DNA of 38,797 bases, taken from assembly GCA_021797085.1 (NCBI GenBank), contig JAKAAG010000003.1, positions 15,598 to 54,394 on the forward strand. The letters run 5' to 3'. Shown one piece after another: positions 1 to 38,797 of the stretch (the stretch's first letter is position 1; each line of letters begins with the position of its first letter). A program made the position numbers and the translations under genes. The stretch is from Nanobdellota archaeon (GTDB lineage: Archaea; Nanobdellota; Nanobdellia; Parvarchaeales; Parvarchaeaceae). The notes under the pieces were generated by a model. The model saw nothing but the letters and a program-made list of their open reading frames with translations, did not search any database and had not been told where the DNA came from.

Positions 1-1
1 C

Positions 2-925
2 AATATTCAGTTTAATGGTGTTTCAGCAGCTAGTACTTCAACTGATTATTGGCTAAAATTGGGCAGCATCCAACCAAGGGAATCTTACATTGCATTCATG
101 GGCTTTGCATTACCAAACATAACATTATTTAACAACACTAATGATGGAGAAGCATCACAACTTTCTCCAGTATATGGGCAATACAATGATGGTCCAAATG
201 TATTTGATTTTTACGCAAACTTTGAGGGGCCTTCGATAATAGAATCATCTTCTTATTCAACTATAAACAGCACAGTAACACCTTCTTATACTGCAGGAAG
301 TGCCTCTTCTCCGGGTTATGTAACTACTTTATCTAATCAAGGGAGTTCGTCTTCATATCTTGAATGGACCTCTGGCCCGTCATCCATTTCCAACGGATTA
401 ATAATGGAGACAAGCGCTTACTATGGGGCACCAGAAAGCTCAAAGCCAGCGGATCAACAGATATTGGGTTTATTGTCCAGTTCAGATCCACAGGAAGCCG
501 GCCAAGGCTTTATAGGTTGCGGTGGAAGCGGCCAACCTGCTAGCACTGGGGTGGCATTCTCTTCAGACCCTTACTGCACAAGTTCATTCATAGAATACGA
601 TGATTCTGCAACGACCTCTTCTTCCAGTAGCATACCTAACGATGATTATATATTCTACAGGTTTACTGTCCTGCCAAGTTCACAGACTCTGCAAATAGCT
701 TCATCTTCCTCATCAATATTCCAGTATCCATATACTGGTACATTATCAACTGTACTGTCAGCTAGTTATTCCGTCTCTCCTTCCGGATCCACAGTTTATG
801 TTGGTGATACCTCTGGAGGAGCTTCGCATACTGCCAGATACTATTGGATCTTAATAAGAGCTTACCCTCCAAATGGTGTTATGCCTTTTGAAACCGTTGG
901 GCCATTAAACGGTCAGCCAAGCTAA
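2..925 (+). CDS. C-terminal part of a large secreted/surface protein with DUF2341/LamG (concanavalin-like) domain; 5' truncated by window edge
   Basis: Frame is open from base 2; GYWLKL-like '...DYWLKLGSIQPRESYIAFMGFALPNITLFNNTNDGEASQLSPVYGQYNDGPNVFDFYANFEGP' and C-terminal 'YYWILIRAYPPNGVMPF' resemble archaeal DUF2341-type surface proteins; Ser/Thr-rich. Confidence 0.75.
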   Translation, partial: NIQFNGVSAASTSTDYWLKLGSIQPRESYIAFMGFALPNITLFNNTNDGEASQLSPVYGQYNDGPNVFDFYANFEGPSIIESSSYSTINSTVTPSYTAGSASSPGYVTTLSNQGSSSSYLEWTSGPSSISNGLIMETSAYYGAPESSKPADQQILGLLSSSDPQEAGQGFIGCGGSGQPASTGVAFSSDPYCTSSFIEYDDSATTSSSSSIPNDDYIFYRFTVLPSSQTLQIASSSSSIFQYPYTGTLSTVLSASYSVSPSGSTVYVGDTSGGASHTARYYWILIRAYPPNGVMPFETVGPLNGQPS

Positions 926-29006: not shown

Positions 29007-29714
29007 ATGGGATTGTTTGATTTGATAGGCTTTGCGGCGGACAAGGCATATAGTAAATATAAGGACTCTAAATTAGAAAATGCAATGGATGCTATCCTAG
29101 ATTCATTGGATTCAACAGCAATAAACATAGAAATTCTACCCTATATTGAGGGCGAGGATAAGCATAAGATAAAGGGCAGGGTATACAGGTTAAGCAAAGA
29201 CGAAGTTCTTAAATCAAGTGCAACTTACTTTTTGACCACTTCTGATTGGCTTTTAAAGTCGGGCATTTCTATAAATGACGATAAAACGTATGAAGCGGCT
29301 TTGCACGAAAAGGGCGGTTATCTTTATCAAAATCTTATTAAAAGATTTCCAGATCCTGTTAAGAATTACAAAGCAAAATACGATCCAAGCCCAGCTATTA
29401 CTGCTTTGTTTTTGTATATACCTGAGGAGAAGGTCCTGTTCGCAATGCCTAGGTTCATAAAAGACGAGAAAACAGGTAAAAATCTATTGGCAAAAAAGGC
29501 AACTACAGAAGAATTCAATAAAATTGAAAAAATAAAAACCGAGAATCCAGAGAGATACGAAAAGATCCTTTCAAATTTCTATTACAGAGCAAAGATGTTT
29601 TCATACAAACTCGCAGAAGAATTAAACAGTTACAATAAAACAGATCTAGGGAATGCATTCCAGCAATTCAAGGAAAAACATGGTTCTGAAAGCGAAATAG
29701 AGTACACTTTATAA
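29007..29714 (+). CDS. Hypothetical protein, soluble, Lys/Glu-rich
   Basis: 235-aa ORF with archaeal TATA-like sequence (aaatataaatac) upstream; no family recognised. Confidence 0.75.
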   Translation: MGLFDLIGFAADKAYSKYKDSKLENAMDAILDSLDSTAINIEILPYIEGEDKHKIKGRVYRLSKDEVLKSSATYFLTTSDWLLKSGISINDDKTYEAALHEKGGYLYQNLIKRFPDPVKNYKAKYDPSPAITALFLYIPEEKVLFAMPRFIKDEKTGKNLLAKKATTEEFNKIEKIKTENPERYEKILSNFYYRAKMFSYKLAEELNSYNKTDLGNAFQQFKEKHGSESEIEYTL

Positions 29715-29753: not shown

Positions 29754-29782
29754 TCAACATAAATTATAATTATTTATGTTGA
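29754..29782. promoter_or_regulatory. Perfect 11-bp inverted repeat overlapping the first start codon of the surface-protein cluster
   Basis: TCAACATAAAT-tataatt-ATTTATGTTGA; right arm contains the ATG at 29776. Confidence 0.55.
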
Positions 29783-32205
29783 CTAAGAAGGCACAGATAG
29801 TTATAGGCATTGGTGTTATTATACTGTCCGCAGCCTTTCTTTTAGTAGGGGTTTATTTTGCCAATTTGCAGGGCCTTTTCTTTCAAAATGGGGCAAGGTC
29901 TTTGCAGTTGTTCGCTGATAACATAGGCTTCTCAATAAATTCACTTTACAGTGCACCTTCCTCCATGTCGATTACTCTAGCAGGAAACAATTCACTGTGT
30001 ACATGGCAGCCATCAATAGCAGCTTATACTTGCGCAGGTGGGTCTAAAGTGTATAATGTGTCTTATGCCAACGGCCCAACCCTTGATTCAGGAAAAAATG
30101 TATTTAGCGTTGCACTTTGTTTCATGGTAGGCTATGGATTTGGTGGTGTAGGTGGCTCAGAAGATGCAGCAAAAGAAGGTGTTGGTGAAGCCGAACAATT
30201 AACAAAAGACGAAGCAATAGAGGGATTGGAATCTGTAGGGGAGCAATCGGCAGAAGTGTCTGAGCAGACTGCTGAGGAGGAAACAAGCCAGGTTGCACAG
30301 GAATCTGGACAGGGATCTAAAAGCAGTTTATTGACTAGAATTAAAAAAGCAATAAAAGACAGAATAGTAACGGACATAAAACATCCGTTTGTGCAGGATT
30401 TGCCAGAGGATTCCCTTCTATCCAGTGGTCTTTCAACTATTAGAGATGCTTTGCCTAGCATGAAAATATTTATCCCAACAGTTGTTGCCTCCCTTTCTGT
30501 AGCGCTAATATCCGTTCCTTTAATAGAAGCTTGGTTCGGTACAACTAGCAGCAACTTGAATACATTTGTTACTAAAGGAATTTATGTAAACGGGCAGCAA
30601 ATAGGCGCTTTGACTGGTCCATCCGTATCAATAAGCCAGCAGATAGCTTCTGCGTATCTTACAGAAGCGCCGATGCCATTCAAGTATGCTGCGGCAGACT
30701 ACGTGTTACAGCAGTACTCTCAGTTACTGTCTAGTGAACAGACATTGAATTCTTTGCCTTCTGGTGTGGGGAAGGATACTTTAATTCTTTTTGCTTCAAA
30801 GCAAGTTGCTGTAAAGCAGAATGTTTTATCAGAATTGTCTTCTAATGCATATACAGCTGCTTCCAATAATCCTTATGGGACTCCGATTTCGGGGGTTTCT
30901 GCTCCAGGTACTTTAAGTTCTTCAAGTTCCTTGGTCGGTTCAGTGGCATTGTCCCAAAGTGGAAGTGACCCGTTGCTTTCAATTCCTTTTTTTCTAGCAC
31001 AGAATGCTTTTCTTACTTATGCTAGGACTGCAAGCTGTCTAAGTTTGCCATCACAACCATTAAATGTGAATAGCTACAATTCTGTTGGAAAGGGCTTGTC
31101 TTCAATATCCGCTGAACTTGGTGCAGCTACTACGCTTGTAAACTTATACACAAAAGTGAATAGTGTTCTCCCCTTAGGTACATACTTTATTGGATACGGC
31201 GGAGAGGTATATCTTGATGGTCAGTCAAGCGGAAGGCCGACACAGGTTACTAGCCCTTTGATAACGGACATGAATGACATGTGTGAACTCGCACAGACCG
31301 CATCTGAACCTGGGCAGAATTTAAGGACAGTTATACAGCCAAGCGGCAATGGCTCTATCTCGTTTTCGATATCTCAGGGGCTTTACAACACGCTTTGTTC
31401 GCAAAATAATGCCCTGTTCCCAAATACCTTGCAGACCGAGCTTAACAACCTTTTCAATTCAAAGTCAAATATAAAAAATATTACGATTTTATTGCCGCCG
31501 GGAGAATCATTAGCTATCTCTAACCAAGGAAGCAATGTAAATTTGTGTATATATAGGCTGCTTATTGATTCTTTCGGTTCTCCAGTTATTGATACAAACA
31601 ATTTCAATAACCCTTCTTTTAATGTTACTGAATATGGCGCACCAGTATCATGTGTTAACATGACAAATTTAAGCGATGGAAAAGTAAATATCGGCTTGAC
31701 CCAAAATGAGCTATCAGCATTGAAAAACATGAGAAACAACCCAGATTTCTACATAAACAACGGTTCATTATTTGGTTTCTCTGTTCCAGTAATGGATTTT
31801 CCAAATCAGTTAACCGCAACTAATCTTTTAGGGCAAAGTAGTTTTCTATCTGCAGGCAATTTCATAGGCGGGGGTAGCCCAATATTGAAAAAAGATTTTG
31901 GTGTAGATTTCCCAGTTGCTTCTTTAATTGCATCTTTTATAGGAAAAAGCATTCCTAAACTTCAAGTTGGCATATCAACTTCTTTGGATAATTTTTTGGT
32001 TGATCCAATGATAGCTATAGCAGCACATGACACAAATCTTTCATACTATGAAACAGATTATTCAAATGTAACGTTGGAATTTACAAAAACACAGCAGGGA
32101 AGCACGACAGATTATAATATAGAAAATGTCTATAATAGTTTAGTTTTCGGAGTGTATCCGAACAATCCAAATTCATTCGGAGGTACTTACTTTTCGGGGA
32201 GTTGA
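29776..32205 (+). CDS. Large membrane-anchored surface protein with pilin-like (class III) N-terminus
   Basis: MLTKKAQIVIGIGVIILSAAFLLVGVYF; further TM-like segments VFSVALCFMVGYGFGG and IFIPTVVASLSVALISVPLIEAWF; Ser/Asn-rich remainder. Confidence 0.8.
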   Translation: MLTKKAQIVIGIGVIILSAAFLLVGVYFANLQGLFFQNGARSLQLFADNIGFSINSLYSAPSSMSITLAGNNSLCTWQPSIAAYTCAGGSKVYNVSYANGPTLDSGKNVFSVALCFMVGYGFGGVGGSEDAAKEGVGEAEQLTKDEAIEGLESVGEQSAEVSEQTAEEETSQVAQESGQGSKSSLLTRIKKAIKDRIVTDIKHPFVQDLPEDSLLSSGLSTIRDALPSMKIFIPTVVASLSVALISVPLIEAWFGTTSSNLNTFVTKGIYVNGQQIGALTGPSVSISQQIASAYLTEAPMPFKYAAADYVLQQYSQLLSSEQTLNSLPSGVGKDTLILFASKQVAVKQNVLSELSSNAYTAASNNPYGTPISGVSAPGTLSSSSSLVGSVALSQSGSDPLLSIPFFLAQNAFLTYARTASCLSLPSQPLNVNSYNSVGKGLSSISAELGAATTLVNLYTKVNSVLPLGTYFIGYGGEVYLDGQSSGRPTQVTSPLITDMNDMCELAQTASEPGQNLRTVIQPSGNGSISFSISQGLYNTLCSQNNALFPNTLQTELNNLFNSKSNIKNITILLPPGESLAISNQGSNVNLCIYRLLIDSFGSPVIDTNNFNNPSFNVTEYGAPVSCVNMTNLSDGKVNIGLTQNELSALKNMRNNPDFYINNGSLFGFSVPVMDFPNQLTATNLLGQSSFLSAGNFIGGGSPILKKDFGVDFPVASLIASFIGKSIPKLQVGISTSLDNFLVDPMIAIAAHDTNLSYYETDYSNVTLEFTKTQQGSTTDYNIENVYNSLVFGVYPNNPNSFGGTYFSGS

Positions 32206-32211
32206 GAAAAA

Positions 32212-33018
32212 ATGGCATTAACTGAAATGATGGCTTTCTTGAATGCTGGCATACTAATAGTTGCATTTGCTCTTCTCTTGGTTGTTTTATCCTTCAGTGT
32301 TTCTCAAATAAACAGTACAAGCGTCTTTGCAAATTCCGAATCCGTTGCGGCAGGGATAGGCACAAGATTAATAACTTCTCCTAATTGTTTTGCTTATAAG
32401 AACACAATCTCTTATTATAATTCAAGTATAGATGCTCCAGGGGGGCCGTTGTATTCATCTTCATACACTGAACCTGGGGTAGTAAACATAAATAAATTCA
32501 TTGAGAATTATTTCCTTTCTTGCATGCAATATATATATTTTGGAGGTGCGACAAACATACCTGCTTTACAGTCAGATCTTGCAGCTGCAACTGGCGTTTC
32601 ATTGACACTATATGATACGCAGGATCCAAACGAGCTGGGACCAACTGGTTCTTTGTATCTTTCTAATTACAATCAGTTTAATTTTGGAGAAAGTTTCCAG
32701 CAGACGGAAGCGTTAATTCAAAAATATGCACAGAACGCGGAATATGCGGCAATGGGTGTAAGCTTAGTAACAAGTTTGATAATTATGATTGCTACTGGAG
32801 GGGCTATCCAATTTAATATAATCCTTGCGGTGGGTCAACATTCCACTACAGAAATAGCTCCTCAATATGCCTTGGCATCTATTTTTTACGCTGAGAATAC
32901 ATACTCTGAAAGTTTTCCAGTAGAAATACAATTTACTAATGCACAAGGACAGCCGACTTTCCAAAACAGCGGCGTATTACAGGTTCAGGTTACATATGGT
33001 ATTCCACCTTACAGTTAG
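32212..33018 (+). CDS. Secreted/membrane-anchored surface protein, pilin-like architecture
   Basis: Short N-terminus followed by MMAFLNAGILIVAFALLLVVLSFSV; SPNCFAY segment; internal TM MGVSLVTSLIIMIATGGAI. Confidence 0.78.
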   Translation: MALTEMMAFLNAGILIVAFALLLVVLSFSVSQINSTSVFANSESVAAGIGTRLITSPNCFAYKNTISYYNSSIDAPGGPLYSSSYTEPGVVNINKFIENYFLSCMQYIYFGGATNIPALQSDLAAATGVSLTLYDTQDPNELGPTGSLYLSNYNQFNFGESFQQTEALIQKYAQNAEYAAMGVSLVTSLIIMIATGGAIQFNIILAVGQHSTTEIAPQYALASIFYAENTYSESFPVEIQFTNAQGQPTFQNSGVLQVQVTYGIPPYS

Positions 33019-33580
33019 ACTGGGTAAGAAAGGCCAGCTTACAATGCTTGATTTAGTGCTAGCACCACTGGTAGCAGTAGTTCTAGCCGTTTTAGCATCG
33101 GCTTTGCTTCACGGCGCTACCGCAAACCTATTGACAGCCGTAAGTCAGCAACCAGTCTCATTTTCATGCAATTTTGCTTTGGATACAATATACAGTACAT
33201 ACTATGTTCATAATGCGTTTACTTTGTCTCAGCTAGCTTTGTCTAATCCTAGCCAGTATTCTCTTGCAAATTCAAATAAAGAGCAGTCCTTATCGACAAA
33301 TTGCAGCGGAGCATGCAATTCTAATTACAATTACATTCAAACATATCTTTATAACTCTTCTTCTCTCTACAGTGATTTTATAGGCTATTTTTCCGGTTTT
33401 TCTCTAAGTGATTTTCAAGTCTTGACAGGACAAGAAACGGCTACATTGAAAGCGCTTGGAATGCAGGTCTTTTTAAATCAAATACCTGCAGGCGTTACTG
33501 GTAAATCAGAATGCAGCATGCAGGTTTATAATCCTGCAGATCCTTCAAAGCCTTATACTATTTACGGGGTGATAAGCTAA
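32996..33580 (+). CDS. Membrane-anchored surface protein with class III (KKGQ) signal
   Basis: MVFHLTVRLGKKGQLTMLDLVLAPLVAVVLAVLASALL; start set at ATG 32996 rather than the longer track ORF (32939), which would overlap the upstream gene by 80 bp. Confidence 0.75.
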   Translation: MVFHLTVRLGKKGQLTMLDLVLAPLVAVVLAVLASALLHGATANLLTAVSQQPVSFSCNFALDTIYSTYYVHNAFTLSQLALSNPSQYSLANSNKEQSLSTNCSGACNSNYNYIQTYLYNSSSLYSDFIGYFSGFSLSDFQVLTGQETATLKALGMQVFLNQIPAGVTGKSECSMQVYNPADPSKPYTIYGVIS

Positions 33581-36500
33581 ATGCTAAATACTAAAGGACA
33601 GGCAAATATGATTGTGGTGCTGGGCATGGTCGCAGCTACAATATATATAGTTCTTAATGCCTTCGGTTACATAGGAAATGTAGGTTTAAGTTCAAAAATA
33701 GAGATAACCGCACAAAACAGCATTTATCAAACGCTTGCGTTAAAAAACTATCTTATACAAGAAGCAAATTACAATTTCCAGAAAGCAGAACTTTTTGACG
33801 GGCTTACTTTGCAGCCAAGCAGCGTTGACTGTGGCTATATAAATACCTCTAAGTCATTACCTTTTGTGCCGGTTCCCAAGATTTATTACTGGAGGAATCT
33901 GGCGGGCCAGATTTGCCTTCCTAATAACAATATGATAGAATACGGCCTTGAAACGCTTTTAAATAAGAATTCATTTGAAGTAGTAAATTCATCAAATATA
34001 GATATACAGTCTAATTTGGTGCTTAATCTATCTGAACGAAGTAATACAGTATTTTTTAGCAATTTTTCTGCGCCTTTTCTAAGCAACAAATATGAATTTC
34101 AGTATAATACTTCATCAGCTACTTTCTCAGTATGTGAGTGGTCCTCAAGCGGATGTTCCTATATTGACAGCAACGTTCCTTTAGGGATTAACTTTAATTT
34201 GTCTGGCATGGAATTTACTTCTATGCCTTTACAGGATGTTGTTTCTGGTGTAATAGACCAGTCGGTTTCAGTGAGTGCCTTTTTCAAGGGGTCTGGCCTT
34301 TCTCCTTCAAGTCAATATACATTGGTTACATTTCCAAATGGGGATGTTGCTATTATTTATACTGACACAATATCTGGGGTTACTTCGTTTTATCTGACGC
34401 CTATGCCAGATGAAAATCTATACTCCTTAAGCAGTGTTATCTCATATGATAATGCAAATGGTATACCAAGTCAAATAAAGCTTGTTAATGCTTCAAAAAG
34501 CGGGTTTCTTTTTGACGGCACAAATTATACTTTTTCCGTAACTTCTGACACTAATGGGATATTCACAATAAAACCGGCAAATTACGTTATGTTTGGCATA
34601 CAACCTAAATTCGTTTATTACAAATACATTTTAAACAGCATACAAAATTCTGGCACACAGAATCTTCTATTTCCGAACAACCAGAATCTTTACGTTTCAT
34701 ATTCCTTGTTCCCTTTGTACTCTCCACAAGTTTGCGTAAATTATAACGAGGGCCAATACGATCTACAAAACTGCCTCACACTTTCTGATTCTATAACAGG
34801 TAATAACTACCTGAGCCAGTTAATGCAACTGGGGATTGCATTTGTAAATCAAAGCTTTCCAATAGGAAACCAGAAAATAGAAGGTTTTGCACAGTATGAA
34901 ATAGACAATTATATATCAAATGCGATAAACGCGGTAAACCTTAAAACAGTATCAGTAAATGGCAGGCCAAAGTATGATTGGTATTCTGCACTGATTTTAC
35001 AGCTTGGCTCTCCACAAGGAACTAGCTACCTGTTAAACAAATTAAATAGAGTGAAAGAACCATATTATGGTACTTATATATATAACTGTGAGCAAAATAG
35101 CTCGGATTTAACTTATTGCAGAAATTTGTTGTCTTCTACATTATCCCAAGATGTTATAGCTTTGCTACAGCAGCAAATGCCACAGGAATTAAGTTTTCTC
35201 TCCGGCACTAATTTCAATATAAATGTTTTGAATCTTTCCATAAACGCGAGTGAAATAGATTCCTGCGTAAATGCAAGTAATTACAGTGTCAAATCGAATT
35301 ATTCCTATTCCGTAAAAAGCTTGCCTGTAAATGGGAATTTCTCTGAAGAAGTGCTTGGTATACCAATATCATTGGATTTCGGCTATCAGAATAATCTAAG
35401 TTTAACGCCGACTGAAGCATGCGGTATACAAAGATCTCCTTACGCTACAGGATATCCTGGATTTACCGAGGCGCTCATAACAAATAATTTTACTTACATC
35501 AATTGTGCTCCAGTTATTTCACAATTATTCTTAAATCATACTTGCATTGCCAGTTTGCAGACATCAAATTCTACAATGGAAAGCTATCTGAATTCTACAA
35601 GTTCAGCTCCGAATGGAGAGTATTGTCGTAAACTTTCAAATGGGCAGTATTTCTGTCCTTATTATAAGGTATCAAGCTTCTCTTACAAAAATTGGATAAC
35701 AAGTAGCAATACTTGCCCAGATTACTTTGTATTAAACAGCAAAAACTTCACGACTTCACAGAACAGTAATTACAGGCTCGTTTCGGTTTATGGGGGAGGA
35801 GCAGACTCCGCGAATTTATCGTTCTATAACAAGACATTTGCTTTATACAATGGGTCTTTAAATCTTCCTATGAATTTCAGTTTTAATGTTGGTTTCAATT
35901 CAACAGGGCCATATGCAGGAGTTAGTGCATTCTTTTCCCCCAGTCATTATCTTTCTGGCAGTGTCATATCCGCTTCTTTCAATTCAGAACAGAATCCAGA
36001 TGGGTTGTATAATTACTCCCTAGCAACTGATTCTGCTAGCCTGCTTGGCGGTTCAAATGACTATGTATCACCGGGTACACAAAATGAGCTTAGCTTCAAT
36101 CGTTATTGCATACACAGCGATGGTTGCAATCTCACTGCATATCTTAATTCAAACCTCCAGAGCAGCTTTTATAGTAACTCCTCCGCCATTGCATCAACCG
36201 TTAATTTGCTTGGGATATCAACTACTTCCAAGCCTTCCTCTGACCTAATAAGCTATGCTTTTGTGAGTAATTATGTTCCTCTCTACAAACCAATTGAAGG
36301 AGAATTAGCGTATGCTCCGGCCTCTGAGCTTAATCCATCTTTAAACACTTCCTTTGGTCTTACAACCGATAATAATACTTACTTCAATGAGCTGCTTCTG
36401 AATTCCTCTCACTTTACTAGTAGTTTCCAGCTTGCAATTAATCTTAATAGCAATTTCAATTTCGGTTATTTCGTTCCAGGTTATATAAAAATATTTGGAG

Positions 36501-37006
36501 TTTATTCGAGTAATGAAGTTTTACAACTCTATTGGTGGAATCAAACGGCCTTGGAAAATGGCGGTTTGTTGTGGATTAATCTTACAAAAAACGTGCCAAA
36601 CGAATTGTATATAGTTTATGGGCAAGGCGCTTCTTATACAGGGAAGTTTTCTGATAACGGCTCTTCAGTTTTTCCATTCTTCTATTCTGTAAATTCAAAT
36701 AGCAAGCCATTTACTTTTCTTTATCCGAATAAAGAGCAGCATAACTTCAACGCATATTATTCTGAAGCTGGCTTGAATCTTTCAAATACAGAACCAGTAC
36801 CCCCTTACATTTACAACGCTACTTTAAGTTCTTATTATGAGGAATTTGCATGTATAAACGTTAACCCGTTTAAGTTGACTCTTCTTAACGGAACGTACTC
36901 TGCATATCCTCCAAACTTTAATATAAATGAATTATATAATGATTTTAGTACAGAATACCCCGGTTTAACTATAATCGGAAAGCAAACTTACACAAATTGG
37001 CCGTGA
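33581..37006 (+). CDS. Giant surface protein with class III-like (TKGQ) N-terminus and C-terminal DUF2341-like domain
   Basis: MLNTKGQANMIVVLGMVAATIYIVLNAF; 1141 aa, very rich in Ser/Asn/Tyr and NxS/T sequons; C-terminal GGLLWINLTKNVPNELYIVYGQGASYTGKFSDNGSSVFPFF. Confidence 0.8.
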   Translation: MLNTKGQANMIVVLGMVAATIYIVLNAFGYIGNVGLSSKIEITAQNSIYQTLALKNYLIQEANYNFQKAELFDGLTLQPSSVDCGYINTSKSLPFVPVPKIYYWRNLAGQICLPNNNMIEYGLETLLNKNSFEVVNSSNIDIQSNLVLNLSERSNTVFFSNFSAPFLSNKYEFQYNTSSATFSVCEWSSSGCSYIDSNVPLGINFNLSGMEFTSMPLQDVVSGVIDQSVSVSAFFKGSGLSPSSQYTLVTFPNGDVAIIYTDTISGVTSFYLTPMPDENLYSLSSVISYDNANGIPSQIKLVNASKSGFLFDGTNYTFSVTSDTNGIFTIKPANYVMFGIQPKFVYYKYILNSIQNSGTQNLLFPNNQNLYVSYSLFPLYSPQVCVNYNEGQYDLQNCLTLSDSITGNNYLSQLMQLGIAFVNQSFPIGNQKIEGFAQYEIDNYISNAINAVNLKTVSVNGRPKYDWYSALILQLGSPQGTSYLLNKLNRVKEPYYGTYIYNCEQNSSDLTYCRNLLSSTLSQDVIALLQQQMPQELSFLSGTNFNINVLNLSINASEIDSCVNASNYSVKSNYSYSVKSLPVNGNFSEEVLGIPISLDFGYQNNLSLTPTEACGIQRSPYATGYPGFTEALITNNFTYINCAPVISQLFLNHTCIASLQTSNSTMESYLNSTSSAPNGEYCRKLSNGQYFCPYYKVSSFSYKNWITSSNTCPDYFVLNSKNFTTSQNSNYRLVSVYGGGADSANLSFYNKTFALYNGSLNLPMNFSFNVGFNSTGPYAGVSAFFSPSHYLSGSVISASFNSEQNPDGLYNYSLATDSASLLGGSNDYVSPGTQNELSFNRYCIHSDGCNLTAYLNSNLQSSFYSNSSAIASTVNLLGISTTSKPSSDLISYAFVSNYVPLYKPIEGELAYAPASELNPSLNTSFGLTTDNNTYFNELLLNSSHFTSSFQLAINLNSNFNFGYFVPGYIKIFGVYSSNEVLQLYWWNQTALENGGLLWINLTKNVPNELYIVYGQGASYTGKFSDNGSSVFPFFYSVNSNSKPFTFLYPNKEQHNFNAYYSEAGLNLSNTEPVPPYIYNATLSSYYEEFACINVNPFKLTLLNGTYSAYPPNFNINELYNDFSTEYPGLTIIGKQTYTNWP

Positions 37007-37009
37007 ATT

Positions 37010-38797
37010 ATGGATAAACAAAAAAGATCGGTTGAAGTTTTAATGGTATGCTTTATAATTGTACTTTCTCTTTTAATTGTTTATAGAGGGGTAAATCTCT
37101 TATCAAATAACAATTTGGTCGTTAACACTAACTCTAGTTTGCAGGCAATAACTACAACGAGCACTCCGAATCCATTATCAAACTCCGTGTCTAATTACGG
37201 CAATTCCGATCCTTCAAGTTTAATAACAAGCAATGAATATGTGTCTTCTTCATCACCAATCACTAATTTCTGGTTTAATGAAAAATTTTACCCTGGAAAT
37301 ATCCAGTCTTCTTCAACCGGTTATTCATGCAGCGCAGTAAATGAGATAACCGCTCCTCATTTATGCTGGGATATCTTCACTTTATTTTCATGCGGCGGTG
37401 GTCCAACGACTTCTAATTTTACTAATCTAGTGGGGTACCTTGGTTTTCCACAGGGCGACAGCCAATTTCCAAACAGCGGTGGTGTAAACTATTCAAATCT
37501 TTATTCTGCAACAAACAATGCTACTTCACAGAACGTTTATCAATTGCCTTCATCAGAATTTCCTTATCAAAACTTTATAAATTGGAGCGATTCAACAATA
37601 CATGCTTATTATGGTTTATATCCCACTTATCTATACGCTATAAACAACTCTTTTACAGGTTATACGAATCTGCCAGGCAGTGTACCAAAAAGCACATTGA
37701 TAATACCTGCCGTTTCATGTGGTTCTACCTTTATAAATAATTATGTCAATTATCCTGGTTTTGTGGGTACGTTATACAATATATCAACCTTAAGTGGTTT
37801 TACTCCATCTGTTTTCATAGCGTCTCCAAATCAAAACGGCTACGGCGCAGATTATGCTTTTGGTCACATACTGAGTTTGGGAGGCGATCCTTGGATAGGC
37901 TCATTCAATTCGCTTCTAGCATACCAGATTCAGTCAATAAACCCTGCTTTCAACTATACAATGCCATCTGTGGACTATGCTCAATTTCCGAAGGGAAATA
38001 AAGGTGACATACAGTATCTGAATGTATCTACAAGCTTTTTGACTCCATTGTCTGCCACTTATTATGGAGGGAGTTCTCAGGGGATTGAAATTTACGTTTC
38101 AACCAAAGGTATCTCCTCTCTACTGAACACTTCTACCTCTCAAACAACATGTGCTGAGATAGCACCTCGCGGAGGATGTTTAAGATATACACAGGATCTT
38201 ATAACATCCACAACTGCAGATACTTTCACATCTCCAGATCTAGAAGGAGCGTACTATCCTAATTATGGCAATGGCATTTATCTTAAGTTTAGAACTGATG
38301 GGATATTCCCAATCTGTGCGTGGAATTCTAGCACTGGCAACACATTAAGCAGCTGCACATTTGAAAACCCTGCAACTATAAACAATGTCTCCTATGAAAG
38401 GCTGTGGCTGTCAAATAACCTAAGAAATAACCAGTTATTCAATACCCCGTTCACTCCTGGTTACTCAAGCTCTTCCTATCAGAATAACTTTACATTGACC
38501 GCTTTGGATAGTTTTTGCTTTTATGGAGAAAGCTTTGATACTAGTAATGGTGTTTACACTTCACCAAGCTACACTAGGATAATACCTCCTACAGCACTAG
38601 AAAATTACACCACTGCAATTGGAACATGCAATGCATTTTTTAACAATACAAACTGCTTTAGTAGCACTGCAAGCCAGTATTTAAATTTCCAGGACGGAAT
38701 ATTTGCCAATAACATAAAATGTACTTCAACAGGAATACATGCTCAGAATGTTACGGATGCTTGGATTAATTCAATATATGTAGCAAATGATGCTGGA
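37010..38797 (+). CDS. Large signal-anchored surface protein, 3' truncated by window end
   Basis: Manual translation is open from ATG 37010 for 596 codons to window end: MDKQKRSVEVLMVCFIIVLSLLIVYRGVNLL...; Ser/Asn/Thr-rich; absent from ORF track because no stop is in the window. Confidence 0.82.
   Translation, partial: MDKQKRSVEVLMVCFIIVLSLLIVYRGVNLLSNNNLVVNTNSSLQAITTTSTPNPLSNSVSNYGNSDPSSLITSNEYVSSSSPITNFWFNEKFYPGNIQSSSTGYSCSAVNEITAPHLCWDIFTLFSCGGGPTTSNFTNLVGYLGFPQGDSQFPNSGGVNYSNLYSATNNATSQNVYQLPSSEFPYQNFINWSDSTIHAYYGLYPTYLYAINNSFTGYTNLPGSVPKSTLIIPAVSCGSTFINNYVNYPGFVGTLYNISTLSGFTPSVFIASPNQNGYGADYAFGHILSLGGDPWIGSFNSLLAYQIQSINPAFNYTMPSVDYAQFPKGNKGDIQYLNVSTSFLTPLSATYYGGSSQGIEIYVSTKGISSLLNTSTSQTTCAEIAPRGGCLRYTQDLITSTTADTFTSPDLEGAYYPNYGNGIYLKFRTDGIFPICAWNSSTGNTLSSCTFENPATINNVSYERLWLSNNLRNNQLFNTPFTPGYSSSSYQNNFTLTALDSFCFYGESFDTSNGVYTSPSYTRIIPPTALENYTTAIGTCNAFFNNTNCFSSTASQYLNFQDGIFANNIKCTSTGIHAQNVTDAWINSIYVANDAG

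Follow-up and report, generated by a model that had tools for sequence, protein, structure and literature searches.

The five-gene operon at the end of the 38,797-nucleotide window (the whole stretch of DNA analysed, on contig JAKAAG010000003.1 of a Nanobdellota archaeon, here C11) quite probably codes for one half, minor pilins and tip adhesin, of a type IV pilus (T4P) machine in Parvarchaeota, a DPANN lineage found in acid mine drainage. Genes for the motor, the platform, a small pilin and the prepilin peptidase lie elsewhere in the genome, and the operon is therefore regarded as half of a scattered DPANN T4P machine and not as a new system. Its genes 1-5 are named c0-c4, G numbers denote genomes and C numbers their contigs. 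A preceding sequence-only reading of the window had recognised no described system of this composition, a statement that was given up because other families hold these genes inside archaeal T4P clusters of known type.

Homologues in pilus clusters of other families

Distant homologues were picked up with a c1 profile, and their neighbourhoods were then read. In G043 and G056, from two other families of the class, c0, c1, c2, c3 and a giant gene are arranged as in the window, within stretches of class III pilin-like genes; the c0 homologues adjoining c1-c3 there have E values of 6e-13 and 1.5e-18. In six genomes (G056, G069, G036, G042, G044 and G032), the c1 homologue is located in a pilin-like run behind an ATPase, directly followed by a TadC with eight transmembrane segments (8-TM), on the same contig. 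These ATPases are 44-54% identical to the ATPase of C27 in the genome under study and only ~28% identical to that of C29, which at the sequence level links the operon to one motor type. The idea of the sequence-only reading that minor-pilin-like small proteins go together with giant partners is supported.

With a wider profile, c1 was found in 74 out of 378 genomes of the class, representing 44 of 248 genera, nearly always as a single copy. As an independent test, ten c1 matches from outside the profile-building set were inspected, all of which lie within class III pilin-like runs. At four of these ten loci a C27-type ATPase (43-51% identity) and the 8-TM TadC (TadC8) are present 11-16 kb upstream of c1, and at two the contig edge lies shortly upstream.

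Several accessory genes recur around such clusters. Three 4-7-TM proteins of ~190 amino acids (aa) regularly precede the C27-type ATPase in other families (loci L105:11122-14027, L106, L107 and L143:4671-7292), as do one or two soluble proteins encoded on the opposite strand at the same loci. At the downstream ends of L094, L150-L153 and L156-L159, the pilus cluster is often followed by a gene with an FKBP-type prolyl isomerase-like start (KGDFVNIDY...), possibly a folding helper.

Machine parts in the same genome

The genome encodes two T4P motors, on C29 and C27 (Table 1), neither of which is beside the operon. That ATPase and platform genes are not visible in the window, as had been remarked, is true of the window, but both exist on C27 and also on C29. 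Taken alone, TadC8 does not reach the T2SSF cut-off, but the protein is 30-37% identical to the TadC proteins of the clusters over most of its length. A single A24 prepilin peptidase was found (C17:40628-40969, E 1.5e-14), and the small pilin of the clusters in other families (KAQGLPxN) has homologues at C3 (NRKAQGLPINTI) and at C21 (MKGQGLPVSTL). Judged by sequence, all parts of the machine are thus recognisable in this genome, and because operon, motor, small pilin and peptidase occupy separate sites, one machine appears to be spread over at least four places in this lineage.

Table 1 Genes of the operon in the window and T4P motors of the same genome
Feature	Position	Strand	Description
Gene 1 (c0)	29776..32205	+	809 aa, class III pilin-like, KKA/QIVIGIG; 8 invariant Cys; large minor-pilin candidate
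Gene 2 (c1)	32212..33018	+	268 aa, pilin-like; degenerate class III N-terminus MA/LTEMM; single copy
Gene 3 (c2)	32996..33580	+	194 aa, class III minor-pilin candidate, KKG/QLTMLDL; 4 invariant Cys
Gene 4 (c3)	33581..37006	+	1141 aa, class III modular pilin, TKG/QANMIVV; putative lectin/adhesin
Gene 5 (c4)	37010..38797	+	First 596 aa of a giant, Cys-rich protein, secreted or N-anchored
C29 motor			507-aa ATPase, two TadC, three SALEY pilins (SALEYMMTYGWAIL)
C27 motor			746-aa T2SSE ATPase and 705-aa 8-TM TadC (TadC8)

Two further observations concern the motor loci. Beside the C29 motor (L054:5221-9153), three large pilins with nearly identical SALEYMMTYGWAILIIVIV starts stand in tandem, suggesting a recent duplication. 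Directly upstream of the C27 ATPase (L055:6028-8675), a partly masked gene for a secreted protein and an overlapping membrane-anchored piece are present; the secreted protein carries a GTSLAAPSWA motif, which we take to resemble that of sedolisin peptidases.

Operon structure and class III signals

The five open reading frames (ORFs) lie in tandem on the + strand with gaps of +6, -23, 0 and +3 bp in the ORF listing; re-derivation of the coordinates confirmed the five consecutive co-directional ORFs that the earlier reading had described with spacings of -23 to +6 bp. For c2 the internal ATG is used, the longest frame opening at 32939, and c2 shares 23 bp with c1, the best conserved member of the operon. 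All five proteins have a short N-terminus followed by one hydrophobic segment, as had been noted, and c0 and c1 have a second, internal hydrophobic stretch.

Of 90 ORFs with at least 90 aa, taken from contigs of this genome, 4 show a [KR][GAST]Q motif beside an N-terminal TM segment, and three of these four are c0, c2 and c3. The motif is conserved as K/R-G/A-Q in 18/18 c2 orthologues and as K/R-G-Q in 16/16 c3 orthologues, while in c0 the Gln is invariant across 17 orthologues and mostly preceded by Ala, Thr or Gly. In the alignments of all three the motif, overall [K/R/N][G/A/T]-Q, stays constant and the adjacent residues drift, so the three K-[GA]-Q motifs first seen in the window are real. 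Class III N-termini are thus supported for c0, c2 and c3 and, by homology, for c1; c4 begins with charged residues and a single hydrophobic segment and lacks a class III motif. In the Parvarchaeota family c1 begins MALTEMM, whereas homologues in other families begin KAQLE, RKSQIE, RKAQTE or LKAQFE; the alignment places M-A-L-x-E upon K-[AS]-Q-x-E, with R52, C59-F-A, P88-G89 and K95 invariant. By sequence homology, c1 is accordingly classed as a pilin whose leader has lost its charge, and it lacks the K-[GA]-Q motif because its N-terminus has degenerated.

The ectodomains had also been called dense in N-glycosylation sequons, which holds for c3 (39 against 25.1 ± 4.3 in shuffles, p 0.0015); the other four genes show no excess over shuffles (p 0.39-0.86). 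STT3/AglB oligosaccharyltransferase was not found in the genome, which is 87% complete. The glycosylation argument is not supported outside gene 4.

Conservation in Parvarchaeota

The order of the operon is unchanged in each of the 12 genomes that were compared in depth and at all 18 close loci in named records (metagenome-assembled genomes titled Candidatus Parvarchaeota or Nanoarchaeota archaeon), as far as the contigs reach; the five ORFs are syntenic in every Parvarchaeota genome with a contig spanning the site, a comparison that the sequence-only reading had proposed. Its assignment of the window to a small archaeon is likewise supported as a Parvarchaeota origin. Orthologues of c3 were found in most genomes of the genus and in three of the wider family. 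The left flank consists of a large Lhr-type helicase and a CCA-adding enzyme (other genes in G017 and G024), and the right flank of a housekeeping set. Loss of the operon in G012, G015, G016 and G025 was rejected, since the CCA gene is missing too or the contig stops there; G012 retains a cut c0. The apparent absences are thus assembly gaps, and together with the fixed order they indicate a core chromosomal operon. A mobile element at tRNA-Asn was also rejected, the flanks being core housekeeping genes in nearly all relatives, and C11 itself bears core archaeal genes.

Between tRNA-Asn and the operon, a 235-aa protein (29007-29714) is encoded, which occurs in about half of the genus genomes compared, matches SBB_T7 weakly (E 0.0085) and is split in G009. 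At the other end of the window, a 755-aa class III protein (SKSQSSLEYLIV) with DUF2341 and an internal masked stretch (L002:13386-15653 on C11, reaching window positions 1-56) is followed by a Ser-rich ORF at 2-925.

The large proteins c3 and c4

Concanavalin A (ConA)/galectin-like beta-sandwich regions are predicted in c3 at ~146-343 and ~760-1017, and DUF2341 at ~981-1038. The AlphaFold2 model shows the KGQ motif with helices at 5-31 and 47-67 and two beta regions with local confidence of ~70-85. In a Foldseek search with this model, the best PDB matches were galectins and CBM66 (E 2e-4 to 9e-4, TM-score ~0.6 on the target, aligned region unspecified), and a LamG_3 match was found in the G028 orthologue (E 8e-4). 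DUF2341 scored 16.1 bits in the window copy against a cut-off of 23.4; it recurs weakly towards the C-terminus of 6 out of 12 orthologues, that of G023 exceeding the Pfam cut-off with 24.5 bits. PDB sequence searches with the c0 and c3 profiles gave no significant match, and NCBIfam returned nothing useful for the operon proteins. Predicted galectin/CBM66-like sandwiches and a putative DUF2341 in a 1,141-aa pilin make c3 probably an adhesin, judging from the model and from its resemblance to the lectin-bearing minor pilin PilC, so that the adhesin role suggested earlier is considered likely.

In a viral fold library, c3 matched mostly ConA-like lectin proteins as well as large low-quality entries. 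One match was to AMDV4_2, a protein of an uncultured acid-mine-drainage virus (E 4e-5, low TM-score), which may simply reflect a shared beta-sandwich fold. DUF2341 ORFs of >4000 aa are also located away from the operon (G000:C13:25289-31783 and relatives).

The window ends at the end of C11, so c4 is truncated. Intact orthologues have 2817-4016 aa, far above the 1141 aa previously given as the largest ectodomain, with 51 invariant Cys in the full-length copies compared; no internal repeats were found in c4.

Proposed mechanism and alternative explanations

In the mechanism that we propose, c0-c3 would be pilin-like subunits, and the single A24 peptidase of C17 would cut the class III leaders of c0, c2 and c3. 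The 746-aa T2SSE ATPase and 8-TM TadC of C27 would assemble c0-c3, probably as the first-laid complex at the filament tip, on a shaft made of the small KAQ-GLPINTI pilin (C3/C21). There c3 could expose its predicted lectin-like domains, and c4, a disulfide-rich giant exported without a pilin signal, would be a probable non-pilin partner in the role of bacterial PilY1. The likely job of such a pilus would be binding to a partner archaeal cell or a surface.

Several points weigh against this mechanism. Motor and operon are unlinked in this genus, so their pairing rests on the linkage in other families, and no motor was found at four of the ten new c1 loci (G174, G132, G239 and G280) within 40 kb each. 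The AlphaFold2 model of c3 is poor overall (predicted local distance difference test, pLDDT, 48) and sandwiches of the ConA type are widespread as a fold, while the c1 model (pLDDT 34) is unusable. DUF2341 is expanded in the genus, with up to 16 matches per genome, and is therefore not specific to pilus tips. Between c4 and the giants downstream in other families homology was not detected, their position alone being shared.

It is quite improbable that the operon serves the C29 machine with its 507-aa ATPase, TadC pair and three SALEYMMTYGWAIL pilins, or that both machines share it. In favour of this, the genome also has the C29 set, next to canonical major pilins, one prepilin peptidase serves all, and other euryarchaeal ATPase/TadC modules have been proposed to draw on shared pilin sets (PMC4858521), but the motor linked to c1 homologues elsewhere is of the C27 type at the identities given above. 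A surface glycoprotein complex, class III-processed and kept in the membrane as a filament-free envelope or adhesin coat, could account for subunits much bigger than ordinary pilins, for the absence of Glu at +5 in c0, c2 and c3 and for the giant Ser/Asn-rich ectodomains; given that the homologues occupy motor-containing pilin clusters and that large modular tip pilins are known, such as Streptococcus sanguinis PilC (PMC9934059), we consider such a coat improbable.

More weight, albeit still on the unlikely side, is given to a DNA-uptake (competence) pilus whose tip would capture DNA from outside the cell, either to salvage nucleotides or for transformation. Genes of the Methanococcus maripaludis epd/eppA pilus and the DUF2341 gene MMJJ_08210 scored in a transformation screen (PMC10133366), and DNA import via DPANN pili has been proposed by several authors (PMC9563170); however, none of the operon's genes was recognised as a DNA-uptake gene, and a lectin-like domain suggests sugars as the ligand. 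DNA uptake and attachment are not mutually exclusive. Hardly any credence is given to SPEARE-like giant host-interaction proteins unrelated to pili. The operon does encode giant extracytoplasmic proteins of a DPANN archaeon, and gene 4 has LamG-like domains in common with SPEAREs, but a serine protease or restriction-endonuclease domain was not found in c0-c3 or an intact c4 orthologue (Pfam/NCBIfam), class III motifs are present, and SPEARE matches are reported to be absent from Parvarchaeota (PMC6642349). SPEARE identity was rejected on the missing domains and this reported absence.

Relation to known systems and significance

Archaeal T4P clusters with an ATPase and TadC have been described (Makarova 2016, PMC4858521), as have T4P islands with fast-evolving pilins in the DPANN dark matter (Makarova 2019 Fig. 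2A, PMC6393860), and a role at the tip of archaeal T4P, as adhesins, has been proposed for DUF2341 proteins (PMC4858521). The machine described here resembles these islands in its VirB11-type ATPase, TadC, many class III pilin-like proteins, A24 peptidase and large adhesin-like proteins including DUF2341. It differs in having its motor, shaft pilin, peptidase and tip operon at four or more separate loci, in a tip operon reduced to four pilin-like genes and one giant, and in the 8-TM TadC.

By analogy, S. sanguinis PilC is the closest characterised design to c3: its class III signal precedes a pilin part and a lectin module of ConA type, and it acts together with other minor pilins (PMC9934059). 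PilC is bacterial, of ~53 kDa and shown to bind glycans, whereas c3, with 1141 aa, two predicted sandwich regions and a putative DUF2341, is a putative lectin. The tip-priming complex of bacterial minor pilins and PilY1 likewise brings together minor pilins of small and large size and, encoded alongside, a huge adhesin that is not a pilin, although no sequence homology was seen and c4 is Cys-rich and of 2800-4000 aa. Minor pilins and a DUF2341 protein share one cluster in the epd/eppA system of M. maripaludis, which is compact with the peptidase inside (PMC10133366, PMC3875500). The thin T4P of Saccharibacteria, a proposed functional analogue, also belongs to an ultrasmall episymbiont, albeit a bacterial one, and its host-binding role was shown by mutants (PMC12206443). 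ARMAN cells have been seen joined to Thermoplasmatales through pili-like structures (PMC5864196), and host attachment by the Parvarchaeota pilus would fit both these contacts and the Saccharibacteria role.

We tentatively suggest, at somewhat below an even chance, that a DPANN-wide T4P subtype (~750-aa ATPase, fused 8-TM TadC, QGLP-type shaft pilins, c1 as single-copy core minor pilin) carries a giant lectin-pilin and a disulfide-rich tip protein of 3000-4000 aa and serves Parvarchaeota as a dedicated device for recognising and gripping Thermoplasmatales partners.

In a study of a new Parvarchaeota family, only virB11 and TadC were listed as pilus genes, and genome streamlining was raised as a question (PMC7779479). 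The new points here are what this operon is, that it is linked to one motor type, that the machine is scattered, that the signal of c1 is degenerate and that c3 is a putative lectin-pilin. This lineage does possess the pilin/adhesin half, conserved, unannotated and separated from the motor, and this half supplies the missing subunits; c1 offers a single-copy marker family for this pilus type across the class, and the proteins named are candidates for work with antibodies, glycan arrays and proteomics. For the poorly understood attachment of DPANN archaea to their hosts, the operon provides candidate parts.

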